This document shows positions 38,564 through 49,781 of a stretch of DNA of 64,000 bases, in pieces. Made by a program: the position numbers and the translations under genes. The notes beneath the pieces were generated by a model, which did not search any database, was not told the origin of the DNA, and was given only the letters and a program-made list of their open reading frames with translations. Origin of the DNA: Oscillospiraceae bacterium (lineage in GTDB: Bacteria > Bacillota > Clostridia > Oscillospirales > Acutalibacteraceae). How positions within the stretch are numbered: position 1 is the stretch's first letter; the number at the start of each line of letters is the position of its first letter. The stretch lies in the NCBI GenBank assembly GCA_022650455.1, contig JALCPO010000005.1, forward strand, positions 1 through 64,000, given 5' to 3'.

Positions 38564-38837
38564 TAACAGCCGGACGGGGTCCGGATTATACTGGAATGAG
38601 AAAATGCGATGAGCGGAAGAAGTAACCGCCAACGAGGGCACCAGAGAGAAAGCGTCACCGGCTGAGAGCGCTTTTTTGCCCGGCAGGCGGCCAAATGCGT
38701 CCGTGAGCGGGCGGGGGGAAACGAAGTATCCCCGCACGGGTGGCTCCGTTAACGGCCGCCATGAGCAAGAAAACGGAGTGGAACCGCGGATTTTTTCGCC
38801 TCCGTCCCCTTTTTGGGGGACGGAGGCTTTCTTTTTG
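38564..38837 (+). promoter_or_regulatory. T-box leader, Cys-type (specifier TGC at 38696-38698)
   Basis: Promoter TTTACA-N17-TATACT; CCAGAGAG distal element; CCAAATGCGTCCGTGAGCGGGC; T-box GGAGTGGAACCGCGG (38775-38789); terminator GCCTCCGTCCCC..GGGGACGGAGGC + T-run. TGGA in the T-box bulge fits tRNA-Cys discriminator U73. Confidence 0.9.
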
Positions 38838-43084: not shown

Positions 43085-43462
43085 TTATTTCAAAACCGCG
43101 GTGACCTCGACCTCGCACAGGGCGCCCTTCGGAAGGGCTTTGACCGCCACGCAGGAGCGCGCCGGCTTCCCGGTGAAATACTTGGCGTAGACGGCGTTGA
43201 ACGCGGCAAAGTCGTTCATATCCGCAAGAAAACAGGTGGTTTTCACCACGTCGGCGTAACCTGCCCCGGCGGCCTTCAGAATCTCGCCAACGTTCCGGAT
43301 GGCCTGCTCCGCCTGCGCGGAAATATCGCCCCTTGCGAGCTCGCCCGTCGCCGGGACGATGGGAATCTGGCCGCTGGCAAAGACGGTGTTCCCCGCCACG
43401 AGGGCCTGCGAATAGGGCCCGATCGCGGCCGGGGCGCTTTTTGTGGAAACGGTTTTCAGCAT
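43085..43462 (-). CDS. ridA: RidA family reactive imine/enamine deaminase
   Basis: MLKTVSTKSAPAAIGPYSQALVAGNTVFASGQIPIVPATGEL...VVKTTCFLADMNDFAAFNAVYAKYF. Confidence 0.94.
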   Translation of the reverse strand: MLKTVSTKSAPAAIGPYSQALVAGNTVFASGQIPIVPATGELARGDISAQAEQAIRNVGEILKAAGAGYADVVKTTCFLADMNDFAAFNAVYAKYFTGKPARSCVAVKALPKGALCEVEVTAVLK

Positions 43463-43686: not shown

Positions 43687-44880
43687 TCAGCCGATAATCC
43701 GGTAGCCGGCTTTGACGATGGCTTCGCGGATTTCGTTCCGGTGTGCGCGGTTCCGCGTTTCGATGCCGATGGAGAGCGTGCAGGCGGTGATGTCGGTTTC
43801 CTCGCCGCTGCGGTCGTGCCGCACGCTGATAACGTTGCCGCCGAGGTCGGCAATGATGGCGGAGACTTCTTTCAGCTCCCCGGGGCGGTCGGTCAGCTCG
43901 ATGGTGAGCCGCCCCTGGCGCCCTTCCTTGAGCAGGCCTCGGTTGATGACGCGCGAGAGGATGGTCACGTCGATATTGCCGCCCGAGACCACGCAGACCG
44001 CTTTTTTCCCTTTGATGTCCGCCTTGCCGAACATGGCGGCGGCCACGGACACGGCCCCCGCGCCCTCGGCGACCATTTTGTGCTGCTCCATTAAGGCAAG
44101 AATGGCGGTGGCGGTCTCGTCGTCCGTCACGGTGAGGATGCCGTCGACATAATTCGCGCAGAGGTTGTAAGTCAGCTTGCCGGGGCATTTGACGGCGATG
44201 CCGTCCGCAAACGTGGAGACGCTTTCGAGCGGCTCGATCTTTTTATCCCGGAGAGCCCGGGCCATGCTGGGCGCCCCCGCCGCCTGGACGCCGTAGACCC
44301 TGCACTGAGGACGGAGCGCCTTCACCGCGTAGGCCACGCCGGAGACCAGACCGCCGCCGCCGACCGGGACGAACACCACGTCCGCGTCCGGGAGCTGCTG
44401 GAGGATTTCGAGCCCGATGGTTCCCTGCCCGGCAATGACGTCCTCGTCGTCGAAGGGATGGATCAGCACGGCGCCGCTTTCCTTTTGCAGGCGGCACGCC
44501 TCGCGGTAGGCGTCGTCGTAAACGCCCTTGACCAGCCGGACCTCCGCGCCGTAGCGGCGCGTCGCCTCGACCTTGGAAATCGGGGCGCCGTCCGGGATGC
44601 AGATGAGCGCCGGGATCCCGTTCTTCGCCGCGGCGAGGGCGACGCCCTGCGCGTGGTTCCCGGCGGAGCAGGCGATGACGCCGCGTTTCTTCTCTTCCGG
44701 GGACAGGCGGCTGATCTTGTTGTACGCCCCGCGGACCTTGAACGAGCCGGTCACCTGAAGATTCTCCGTTTTTAAGTAGATGTCGCTTTCCGGGTTGAGG
44801 CGGGGCGCCTTGATCAGGTCCGTCCGGCGGGCCACGTCCTTCAGGGTAAAGGCCGCCTGGTAGATTTTGTCCAGCGTCAT
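43687..44880 (-). CDS. ilvA: Threonine ammonia-lyase with C-terminal ACT domain
   Basis: TDLIKAPRLNPESDIYLKTENLQVTGSFKVRGAYNKISRLSPEEKKRGVIACSAGNHAQGVALAAAKNGIPA; C-terminal ACT region. Confidence 0.93.
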   Translation of the reverse strand: MTLDKIYQAAFTLKDVARRTDLIKAPRLNPESDIYLKTENLQVTGSFKVRGAYNKISRLSPEEKKRGVIACSAGNHAQGVALAAAKNGIPALICIPDGAPISKVEATRRYGAEVRLVKGVYDDAYREACRLQKESGAVLIHPFDDEDVIAGQGTIGLEILQQLPDADVVFVPVGGGGLVSGVAYAVKALRPQCRVYGVQAAGAPSMARALRDKKIEPLESVSTFADGIAVKCPGKLTYNLCANYVDGILTVTDDETATAILALMEQHKMVAEGAGAVSVAAAMFGKADIKGKKAVCVVSGGNIDVTILSRVINRGLLKEGRQGRLTIELTDRPGELKEVSAIIADLGGNVISVRHDRSGEETDITACTLSIGIETRNRAHRNEIREAIVKAGYRIIG

Positions 44881-44932: not shown

Positions 44933-45421
44933 TCACGTTGCCATGGCCATGGAGCCGGTGCGCAGGATCTTGAGAATGTGGTAGGGGCTGTAAAGCTCGA
45001 TGAGGGAGTTGAGGGTACCGGCGTCGCCGGTCAGCTCGACGATCATGAAATCTTCCGCCACGCTGAGAATGTTCGCGCGGAACACGGCGGCGATCTGAAC
45101 CAGGTGCCAGCTGTTCCGGGGCGTGCGTCTCACTTTCAGCAGGAGATGCTCGCGCACCACGGATTTTTTGGGGTCCAGAATGTCGACTTCCTCGATGTCC
45201 ACCAGCTTGCAGAGCTGTTTGTCCGCCTGGCGCACGATGCGGTCGTCGCCCGAAACGACGATTAAAATGCGGGAATACTCCGCGTTTTCCGTCTGCGACG
45301 CGACAATGCTGAGAATGTTGTAGCACCTGCGGCTGAACAGCCCCGCGATCCGGAGCAGGACCCCCGGGTTGTTTTTTGCCAGCACCGAAAGAATATATTC
45401 CTTTTCGCCTGTCTCCTGCAA
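44933..45421 (-). CDS. ilvN: Acetolactate synthase small subunit
   Basis: EKEYILSVLAKNNPGVLLRIAGLFSRRCYNILSIVASQTENAEYSRILIVVSGDD. Confidence 0.93.
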   Translation of the reverse strand: MQETGEKEYILSVLAKNNPGVLLRIAGLFSRRCYNILSIVASQTENAEYSRILIVVSGDDRIVRQADKQLCKLVDIEEVDILDPKKSVVREHLLLKVRRTPRNSWHLVQIAAVFRANILSVAEDFMIVELTGDAGTLNSLIELYSPYHILKILRTGSMAMAT

Positions 45422-45487: not shown

Positions 45488-47155
45488 CTACATTTCCAGG
45501 ATCGGGTCTTCCACCGACCCGCCCGCGGGGACCATGGGCAGCACGTTCTCGTCTTTGCTGATGAGACAGTCGATCAGCACCGGGCCGCGGGACGAAAGCG
45601 CCTCGCGGAGGACCGGCTCGATCTCGTGCTTTTTGGCGATTTTCAGGGCCTTCACGCCGAACGCGCCGGCGAGCTTGGCATAGTCCGTATTGCCGTCCAC
45701 GTCCGTCTGGGAGAACCGGCCGCCGTAAAACAGCTTCTGCCACTGGCGCACCATGCCGAGCGTGCGGTTGTCGAAGATCAGCTCGACGACCGGGATGCTG
45801 TACCGCGCCAGCGTGGAGAGCTCCGCGCAGTTCATGTGGAAGCTGCCGTCGCCCGCGCAGTTGACGACGGTTTCCTCGGGCTCCGCCGTTTTCGCGCCGA
45901 TGGCCGCCCCCAGCCCGAACCCCATGGTGCCGAGCCCGCCCGAGGTGATGAAATGCCGCGGTTTGCGGAAGGTGTAGTACTGCGCCGCCCACATCTGGTG
46001 CTGGCCGACCTCCGTCGTGAGGACCGCCCCGCCGCCCGTGAGGCGGGAGAGCGTTTCCAGCACGGCCTGCGGCGTGACCTCGTCCGGCCCGCCGGCCTGC
46101 CGGAGCGGGAAATCGCGCTTCCAGCCTGCCGCCTGTTTCATCCAGCCGGCGTGGTCCTGCTGCGGAAGCAGCCCGTTGAGCCTGGCGAGGATGCTTTTCA
46201 CGTCGCCCTGCAGCTTCCAGTCGACATCGATGTTCTTGCCGAACTCCGCAGCGTCGATGTCGATCTGAAGGATTTTGCAATGGCGGGCGAACAGCCCGGC
46301 GTTGCAGAGGACGCGGTCGGAGAACCGGGTGCCCGCCGCGACCAGAAGGTCGCAGTTCTTGATCGCCTCGGCGGAAGCCTTGGTTCCGTGCATGCCGAGC
46401 ATCCCGAGGTAGCGGCCGCCGCTCTGGTCGTAGCCGCCCTGGCACATCAGCGAGCAGGAGACGGGCGCGTCGGCCTTTTCCGCGAACTCCGCCGCTTCCC
46501 GCGCCGCGCCGCCGGAAACGACGCCGCCGCCGCAGTAGAAGAACGGCCGTTTGCTGCTCCGGAGCATCGCGAGCGCCCGGGAGAGCTGCCCGTCGGGCGG
46601 AAGGTCCGCGGCGGGGAAAGGCTCCGGGCGGCGCGGCGTAAACTCGGTTTTGAGCGCGGTGATGTCCTTCGGGATGTCCACCAGGACCGGGCCCTTGCGG
46701 CCGGAGCCGGCGATTCGGAACGCGCTGCGCAGCGTGTCCGCCAGGCGCTCCACATGCTTGACGAGGTAATTGTGCTTGGTGACCGGCATGGTGATGCCGG
46801 TGATGTCCACTTCCTGGAAGCTGTCCAGCCCCAGGAGGTCGCGGGTCACGTTGCCGGTGATGGCCACCACGGGGACGGAATCCATGTACGCCGTGGCGAT
46901 TCCCGTGACCAGGTTGGTCGCGCCCGGGCCGGAAGTGGCGATGCAGACCCCCGTCCGGCCGGAGGCACGCGCGTAGCCGTCCGCCGCGTGGGCCGCCGCC
47001 TGCTCGTGGCAGGTGCGGATGTGCCGGATCCGGTCCCGGTACTCGTACAGGGCGTCGTAGAGGTTCAGCACGGCGCCGCCCGGGTAGCCGAAAACGGTGT
47101 CCACCCCCTGCTCCAGCAGGCATTCCATTACGATTTGCGCTCCCGTCAGCAACAT
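45488..47155 (-). CDS. ilvB: Acetolactate synthase large subunit
   Basis: MLLTGAQIVMECLLEQGVDTVFGYPGGAVLNLYDALY...RTCHEQAAAHAADGYARASGRTGVCIATSGPGATNLVTGIATAYMDS. Confidence 0.96.
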   Translation of the reverse strand: MLLTGAQIVMECLLEQGVDTVFGYPGGAVLNLYDALYEYRDRIRHIRTCHEQAAAHAADGYARASGRTGVCIATSGPGATNLVTGIATAYMDSVPVVAITGNVTRDLLGLDSFQEVDITGITMPVTKHNYLVKHVERLADTLRSAFRIAGSGRKGPVLVDIPKDITALKTEFTPRRPEPFPAADLPPDGQLSRALAMLRSSKRPFFYCGGGVVSGGAAREAAEFAEKADAPVSCSLMCQGGYDQSGGRYLGMLGMHGTKASAEAIKNCDLLVAAGTRFSDRVLCNAGLFARHCKILQIDIDAAEFGKNIDVDWKLQGDVKSILARLNGLLPQQDHAGWMKQAAGWKRDFPLRQAGGPDEVTPQAVLETLSRLTGGGAVLTTEVGQHQMWAAQYYTFRKPRHFITSGGLGTMGFGLGAAIGAKTAEPEETVVNCAGDGSFHMNCAELSTLARYSIPVVELIFDNRTLGMVRQWQKLFYGGRFSQTDVDGNTDYAKLAGAFGVKALKIAKKHEIEPVLREALSSRGPVLIDCLISKDENVLPMVPAGGSVEDPILEM

Positions 47156-47219
47156 TTCGGCTCCTCCTATCAGACTTGTTTTCCCGGGCCGGCGGATTTT
47201 TCCGCGCGGTTTGGGAAAT

Positions 47220-47645: not shown

Positions 47646-47675
47646 TTGACAAAGTTTCAAAGCGCGTGCTAAGAT
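47646..47675 (+). promoter_or_regulatory. Sigma-A-type promoter of the cstA T-box transcript
   Basis: TTGACA-N18-TAAGAT. Confidence 0.7.
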
Positions 47676-47684
47676 GGTGCACAA

Positions 47685-47968
47685 AGAATACTGCGAAATG
47701 CAGCGATCGGGTAAAAGTTTCGGATTTTTCCCTTGCAGAGAGCCGCTGGCTGGTGCAAAGCGGAAGGGTATTCCGGGACGACATCTCCCGTGAGCAGCCG
47801 GGTTGAACGCGCAGCCATTAGATCCGGCCGGTTCTAGACCGTTACATCTGGCCGCATGGGGCGGGGCCCGCCCGTTGCGGATGAGCAGGCCGCGAAACAG
47901 CGGCAAGCAGAGTGGTACCGCGGAACAGAACCTCCGTCTCTGAATCAATCAGAGACGGAGGTTTTTTA
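47685..47968 (+). promoter_or_regulatory. T-box leader upstream of CstA-family gene, probably Ile-type (specifier ATC at 47783-47785)
   Basis: GCAGAGAGCC distal element; GACGACATCTCCCGTGAGCAG specifier region; T-box AGAGTGGTACCGCGG (47909-47923); terminator AACCTCCGTCTCTGA-ATCAA-TCAGAGACGGAGGTTTTTT (47929-47968). Confidence 0.88.
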
Positions 47969-48050
47969 ATTTGCCGGAAACCGCCGCGGCGGTGTTCTTT
48001 GCGGGGATCCATCATCGTTTTTTATACGGATGAGGAAGGGAAGAGAAGGT

Positions 48051-49781
48051 ATGAACGGTTTGGCGATCATCTTAGTTTCCATGGCCGTTTTGGGCGGCGG
48101 CTACCTCTTTTACGGCAGGTGGCTGGTAAAAAAGTGGGGCATCGACCCGAAGGCGAAGACCCCGGCGTATGCCCATGAGGACGGGCAGGACTATGTCCCC
48201 GCCCCGAAATCCATCGTCTTTGCGCACCAGTTTTCCACCATTGCGGGCGCGGGGCCCGTTACGGGGCCGATCATCGCGGCGATGTTCGGCTGGGTGCCGG
48301 CGCTGCTGTGGATCCTGGTCGGCGGCGTGTTCTTCGGCGCGGTGCAGGACTTCGGTTCTTTGTACGCGTCGGTGAAAAACGAGGGCAAGTCCATCGGGCT
48401 GATTATCGAGCAGTACATCGGAAAGACCGGCAAGCGCCTGTTCCTGATGTTCTGCTGGCTGTTCTCGCTGCTTGTGATCGCGGCGTTCGGCGACATGGTG
48501 GCCTCGACGTTCAACGCCTCCGCGGTGAAGGCTTATTCGCTCGGCGCGCCGGCGGTCGTGAACGGCGCGACCGCCCCGGGCGCGGCGGCGGGGGCGATCT
48601 CCCTGTTTTACATCCTCGGCGCGGTTCTGTTCGGCCTTTTCCTGAAATACGCGAAGCCCAACCAGGCCGTGATGTTCTTCGCCGGCGTCGCCCTGTTCGT
48701 CGCCATGATGGCGGCGGGCATGGCGTTCCCGGTCTACCTGAACAAAATCCAGTGGCTGCTGGTCGTGTTCGCCTATATTTTCTTCGCGGCGGTCGTGCCG
48801 ATGTGGATCCTGATGCAGCCGCGCGACTACCTGAGCTCGTTCCTGCTGATCTTCATGATCCTCGGCGCGGTGGTCGGCATTTTCATGACGAACCCGGACA
48901 TGAACCTGAAGGCGTTCACCGGGTTTCAGGTGGACGGGAAGCTGCTTTTCCCGACGCTGTTCGTCACCATCGCCTGCGGCGCGATTTCCGGCTTTCACAG
49001 CCTGGTTTCCTCCGGGACGTCGTCCAAGCAGGTGAAAAATGAGAAAGACATGCTTCCCATTGGCTACGGCGCGATGGTTGTGGAGTGCGTGCTCGCGGTT
49101 GCGGCGCTCGTTGTGGCGGGCGCGGCGGCGAAAAACGGCAGGCTGCCGGACGGCACCCCGTTCCAGATCTTTTCCGCCGGGGTCGCGGGCTTCTTCCAGA
49201 AATTCGGGATGTCGCAGTATGTGGCGAAGTGCAGCATGACGATGTGCGTTTCCGCCCTGTGCCTGACGACGCTCGACTCCGTCGCCCGCATCGGCCGCAT
49301 GTCCATGCAGGAGCTGCTGTATGACGAGGACGGCAAGGCGCACACGCCGGTGACCAGGTTCCTGACCAACAAGTATGTTTCCACGGTCGTCACCCTGCTG
49401 TTCGGGTTCCTGCTTTCGCTCGGCGGCTACAACAACATCTGGTCCCTGTTCGGCTCCGCCAACCAGCTTCTGGGCGCGCTCGTGCTCATCGCGCTGGCGG
49501 TGTTCCTCAAGACGACGGGCCGCCAGGGCTGGATGCTCTACGTGCCGATGACCGTCATGCTGGTCGTCACCATGACCGCCCTCGCGATGGCTGTCGCCAA
49601 CATTTTTGTAAAGATCGGCGCGGGCAAGTTCGCGTTCCTGACGGACGGGATGCAGCTGATTGTGGCGGTCGCCCTGATGGCTCTCGCCGTTCTGGTGGCC
49701 TACCACTGCCTGCGCAAGCTGGTGGAAAAGCCGGAAAAGAAACGGGACCCCGCAAAAAGCGCCGCAAAGGACGCCGTATGA
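48051..49781 (+). CDS. cstA: CstA-family carbon starvation/peptide or pyruvate transporter
   Basis: HEDGQDYVPAPKSIVFAHQFSTIAGAGPVTGPIIAAMFGWVPALLWILVGGVFFGAVQDFGSLYASVKNEGKSIGLIIEQYIG. Confidence 0.93.
   Translation: MNGLAIILVSMAVLGGGYLFYGRWLVKKWGIDPKAKTPAYAHEDGQDYVPAPKSIVFAHQFSTIAGAGPVTGPIIAAMFGWVPALLWILVGGVFFGAVQDFGSLYASVKNEGKSIGLIIEQYIGKTGKRLFLMFCWLFSLLVIAAFGDMVASTFNASAVKAYSLGAPAVVNGATAPGAAAGAISLFYILGAVLFGLFLKYAKPNQAVMFFAGVALFVAMMAAGMAFPVYLNKIQWLLVVFAYIFFAAVVPMWILMQPRDYLSSFLLIFMILGAVVGIFMTNPDMNLKAFTGFQVDGKLLFPTLFVTIACGAISGFHSLVSSGTSSKQVKNEKDMLPIGYGAMVVECVLAVAALVVAGAAAKNGRLPDGTPFQIFSAGVAGFFQKFGMSQYVAKCSMTMCVSALCLTTLDSVARIGRMSMQELLYDEDGKAHTPVTRFLTNKYVSTVVTLLFGFLLSLGGYNNIWSLFGSANQLLGALVLIALAVFLKTTGRQGWMLYVPMTVMLVVTMTALAMAVANIFVKIGAGKFAFLTDGMQLIVAVALMALAVLVAYHCLRKLVEKPEKKRDPAKSAAKDAV

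Follow-up and report, generated by a model that had tools for sequence, protein, structure and literature searches.

An isoleucine-type T-box leader upstream of a CstA-family transporter gene in an Oscillospiraceae bacterium and its relatives

A gene for a CstA-family transporter, in the 64,000-nucleotide stretch of an Oscillospiraceae genome analyzed here (hereinafter the window), is very probably controlled by a transcription-attenuating T-box that senses tRNA-Ile(GAU), as judged from the sequences of its leader and of related leaders. T-boxes, including Ile T-boxes, are already known, and the element is best regarded as adding a new regulon member to this known RNA class. The first-pass annotation had described a complete leader before cstA, and a promoter, a match to the Rfam T-box model RF00230 above its gathering score and a terminator are indeed all found between 47646 and 47965:

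47646..47675, + strand: sigma-70-type promoter of the cstA leader (TTGACA, 18 nt, TAAGAT; 10 of 12 matches in a consensus scan)
47694..47944, + strand: T-box leader RNA, Stem I to antiterminator (Rfam RF00230)
47708..47711, + strand: CGGG, 5′ strand of the helix beneath the specifier loop in Stem I, pairing with CCCG at 47787-47790 (Rfam alignment)
47783..47785, + strand: specifier codon ATC (Ile), 1 nt before the 3′ helix strand and conserved in relatives
47910..47922, + strand: T-box sequence GAGTGGTACCGCG, with the bulge UGGU (47913-47916) pairing with the ACCA of an A73 tRNA
47927..47965, + strand: intrinsic terminator competing with the antiterminator (17-bp stem, then a T tract)
48051..49781, + strand: cstA, CstA-family transporter of ~576 aa (PF02554; relatives start at the same methionine)

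The leader matches the full length of RF00230 in a covariance search with 100.6 bits (E 5e-21; gathering score 93 bits), and its folding energy has a z-score of -4.8 against shuffled sequences, with none of 200 shuffles as good. A gene-free interval of ~85 nt separates the end of the terminator from the start codon at 48051, and the next gene after the leader encodes a PF02554 protein, in agreement with the CstA-family identity assigned to the controlled gene at first pass. The element had been counted as the second T-box of the window; it is by count the third, with a cysE element (38600-38806; 92.6 bits, just below the 93-bit Rfam cut-off) also present. When tRNA-Ile is charged the terminator would form, while the uncharged tRNA would bind AUC through its anticodon and UGGU through its ACCA end. 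This binding would hold the antiterminator and let cstA be transcribed, simultaneously with the divergent ilvBN-ilvA-ridA genes. As cstA would be transcribed in the presence of uncharged tRNA-Ile, the transporter would be induced by isoleucine shortage, and it most likely imports something that relieves this shortage.

The assignment to tRNA-Ile was originally drawn from the spacing ATC-TCCCG-TGAGC, which is found as described, with ATC at 47783-47785 and the bulge TGGT at 47913-47916. It is now supported by the conservation of AUC in relatives, the discriminator bases of tRNA-Ile and tRNA-Asp, and an Asp T-box internal to the genome that serves as a control. The proposed Rfam check returned the T-box match but not the specifier from the model alone: in this single sequence, the specifier columns of the alignment contain insertions and deletions with low posterior. 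As these columns are ambiguous, the codon call rests on the relatives and the genome's other T-boxes. In the latter the codon is followed by one nucleotide and then the helix, and it fits the gene wherever the gene tells the amino acid: ATC for ilvB, TAC for tyrS, TTC for pheS, TGC for cysE, CTC for leuA, ACC for thrS and GAC for hisS(-aspS), with target genes outside the window named by eye from their translations. The helix beside the cstA specifier shows compensatory changes in relatives (CGGG/CCCG, CAGG/CCTG, TAGG/CCTA, CAGA/TCTG), which fix the specifier register. One point against the Ile reading is the base after the specifier, which is U where the Rfam consensus has A. A specifier-finder script gave plausible results for 23 of 29 cstA leaders (22 ATC, 1 CTC) but set the helix wrongly in the remaining six, and two more permissive variants were often off by one base. 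The codons were therefore taken from Rfam alignments and from reading the leaders directly. The script likewise misread four control T-boxes (alaS, L007, L008 and thrS), for which the Rfam alignment was used.

Discriminator bases and bulges in the host genome pair as Thr T73/UGGA, Trp G73/UGGC and Asp G73/UGGC, and the host tRNA-His carries C73. A tRNA-Ile gene was not found in the host assembly, which is incomplete (2.1 Mb in 81 contigs, 90% complete); in two genomes of the same genus tRNA-Ile has a GAT anticodon and A73, to which the UGGU bulge is complementary. The earlier argument that this bulge calls for A73, and thereby speaks against a GAC specifier, is thus upheld by tRNA-Ile from the same-genus genomes and by the G73 of tRNA-Asp in the host itself. 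Under that GAC reading, with the codon three bases upstream of AUC, the leader would bind tRNA-Asp and respond to aspartate starvation. A GA(C) element does precede this triplet at about the canonical distance, an A follows it as in many T-boxes, and GAC stands before ATC in several close relatives as well. However, the distance upstream of the specifier varies in leuA and thrS, so the nearness of this element weighs little; GAC is missing while AUC is kept in L043, L044, L051, L055, L075, L093, L270 and other loci; and a GAC specifier would stand four bases from the helix, where the genome's controls have one. Moreover, the clean Asp control of the host genome, a T-box with a GAC specifier before hisS, probably hisS-aspS (L012, G000:C23:885-1087), has the bulge UGGC, whereas the UGGU of the cstA leader forms no Watson–Crick pair with G73. 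The aspartate reading is therefore largely refuted, and we give it next to no chance.

Two further T-boxes of the host genome are recorded here in their own right. L010 (G000:C6:2911-3157) is a Trp-type element (UGG) before an ABC-transporter substrate-binding protein that by eye resembles TrpX, and its bulge is UGGU although tRNA-Trp has G73, implying a wobble pair. L008 (G000:C22:2228-2491) has an apparent AUG (Met) specifier, and the start of its downstream gene resembles PatB-type C-S lyases.

A search across Firmicutes, as the first-pass annotation had suggested, finds the T-box–cstA pairing recurring in several families. The closest relatives by CstA are members of the Ruminococcaceae/Oscillospiraceae and Caproicibacter fermentans, a species available in culture that carries the cstA and the ilvB T-box alike. 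Among the 80 closest CstA loci 26 carry a T-box (AUC in 24, CUC in 2), as do all eight genus genomes with cstA (all AUC), some of these being the same strains as loci among the closest 80. Six more leaders outside both sets (L134, L275, L276, L277, L278, L282) read AUC in four cases and CUC in two. Counting the leader of the window and that of L270, a single CstA subfamily yields 34 distinct leaders, of which 30 read AUC and four CUC (Leu). When 120 CstA proteins are placed on a FastTree phylogeny, T-box presence is strongly clustered, needing 8 changes where shuffles need 32; several branches of this tree are long, and gains, losses and transfers are therefore not exactly countable. The T-box-bearing subfamily spans Acutalibacteraceae/Oscillospiraceae, Lachnospiraceae, Selenomonadaceae (Anaerovibrio, Propionispira and Megamonas) and one Acholeplasmataceae MAG. 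By the T-box sequence pattern, no element was found before cstA in subfamily members of Selenomonas, Clostridium, Synergistaceae and Sutterellaceae, and in the phylum as a whole few CstA genes are preceded by one (4 T-boxes in ~125 upstream regions), absence by this pattern being a judgment that can miss divergent elements. In the host's own family, cstA is present in only 11 of 200 genomes. One of the four phylum-wide T-boxes, of Val type (GUC, 123.9 bits), directly precedes a more distant CstA gene (L224, G376:C2:943328-944127). Given its absence from most CstA genes and from some members of the subfamily, the T-box–cstA link is lineage-bound.

The cstA leader is like the known Ile-type T-boxes of RF00230 in its full architecture, AUC specifier, UGGU bulge and terminator. 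It differs from them in its target, which here is a CstA-family transporter and there ileS, ilv genes, brnQ or an ABC transporter. A 2008 survey of T-box-controlled transporters lists seven families; CstA is not among them and goes unmentioned in its main text (PMC2494555). A precedent is Bacillus methanolicus MGA3, where a T-box lies upstream of cstA1 and was dismissed as a remnant of rearrangement (PMC4342826). Beyond this, a text search of open papers returned no other report of a T-box–cstA pair; an earlier listing in TBDB or a supplementary table is possible. The B. methanolicus pair resembles ours in the order of T-box and cstA gene. It differs in that the pairing described here is conserved, has Ile or Leu specifiers and is linked to ilv genes, while theirs was judged a remnant and has no specifier given in the part of the report consulted. 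The proposal made for cstA1, that of a T-box left behind by some other transcription unit and exerting no control over cstA, draws on an interruption of transcription reported between that gene and the start site (PMC4342826), and T-boxes can move between genes. We consider it very improbable for our leader, as no gene lies between terminator and cstA in the window, and the pairing and the compensatory helix changes persist across several families.

The probable control of cstA by a tRNA-Ile switch is placed in context by the genes on the other side of the promoter region. As the first-pass annotation had it, the cstA T-box is divergent from the Ile T-box of ilvB, the two lying on opposite strands and both matching RF00230:

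47241..47481, − strand: divergent T-box leader of the ilvB operon (RF00230, 102 bits; specifier ATC-A, bulge UGGU)
45488..47158, − strand: ilvB, acetolactate synthase large subunit (Pfam TPP-enzyme domains)
44933..45421, − strand: ilvN, acetolactate synthase small subunit (Pfam ALS_ss_C, ACT_AHAS_ss)
43687..44880, − strand: ilvA-like threonine deaminase (PALP + ACT; Pfam)
43085..43462, − strand: ridA (Ribonuc_L-PSP; Pfam PF01042)

The start codons of cstA and ilvB are ~0.9 kb apart, and ilvB-ilvN-ilvA-ridA make up a gene set for the isoleucine branch, with ilvC and ilvD elsewhere in the host genome. The divergent arrangement recurs in eight relatives (L043, L044, L047, L049, L081, L270, L275, L276), where each ilvB leader examined is a T-box with AUC. 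In L048, the gene divergent from cstA and its Ile T-box is instead ilvE, headed by a Leu-type T-box of its own (CUC; L048:1633-1870); this single divergent promoter pair reads two different branched-chain tRNAs. Selenomonas ruminantium S137 (L117) has ilvB-ilvN just upstream of cstA on the same strand without a T-box, although the interval contains what may be a hairpin and a sequence resembling a promoter. Directly downstream of a T-box-controlled cstA, L108 carries lrgAB-like genes (L108:4344-5413), a linkage sought in all loci and found in this one only.

The cstA product is a clear member of PF02554 (E 2e-146; 489 bits against a 27-bit cut-off), the domain it shares with the E. coli pyruvate/H+ symporters CstA and BtsT (TC 2.A.114). 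It differs from them in being shorter, in standing under a tRNA-sensing leader, and in scoring 247 bits against NF011590, the model of the E. coli pyruvate symporter CstA, whose curated cut-off is 1188. With a score so far under this cut-off, the substrate is not transferable by homology. The YbdD partner (PF04328) was sought in the host genome and not found, and a PDB sequence search returned no solved relative.

The earlier suggestion of pyruvate or peptide uptake under branched-chain starvation is plausible and is strengthened by the linkage to ilvB, ilvE and ilvBN. Our candidate substrates are, in order, pyruvate or another 2-oxo acid of the acetolactate-synthase pathway, a branched-chain 2-oxo acid or amino acid, and peptides. 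Import of pyruvate (or 2-oxobutyrate) that feeds acetolactate synthase is a serious if tentative candidate. In E. coli, both CstA and BtsT are pyruvate/H+ transporters of narrow specificity (PMC7730263, PMC5847655). Here, cstA adjoins ilvB(N), and the specifiers seen before CstA genes include those for Ile, Leu and Val, whose pathways all use pyruvate. The lrgAB-like genes after cstA point the same way, LrgAB being a pyruvate transporter of Staphylococcus aureus (PMC12632267), but they are linked to it in a single locus, and the low NF011590 score and the missing YbdD partner also count against pyruvate. Import of isoleucine, leucine or valine, or of their 2-oxo acids, is possible but somewhat more doubtful. 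A transporter under T-box control usually carries the amino acid that its leader specifies, and in other families T-box specificity predicts the transporter substrate (PMC2494555). The specifiers before CstA genes here are those for Ile, Leu and Val only. Against an amino acid substrate, we know of no characterized CstA member that transports amino acids, and E. coli CstA is very narrow in substrate. Peptide import, for which CstA members were originally described, is unlikely: the E. coli data favor pyruvate, and peptides are not amino-acid-specific, which makes control by branched-chain tRNAs alone hard to explain.

Transporters of the CstA type are widespread, and little is known of what they carry in organisms other than E. 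coli and Salmonella. A conserved tRNA-Ile/Leu switch, with genes for acetolactate synthase or a branched-chain aminotransferase close by, points to a defined physiological role for this CstA subfamily, plausibly one dedicated to branched-chain amino acid supply, and lets a small number of uptake assays be decisive. It also suggests that the published T-box–cstA pair of B. methanolicus, set aside as a remnant, merits re-examination. We hold in even balance the fuller proposal that this Firmicutes subfamily serves specifically to import a 2-oxo acid or a branched-chain substrate for branched-chain supply, under a T-box that reads Ile in some lineages and Leu in others, with Val before a more distant CstA. 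If true, it would provide a regulatory handle on the disputed CstA substrate outside enterobacteria.
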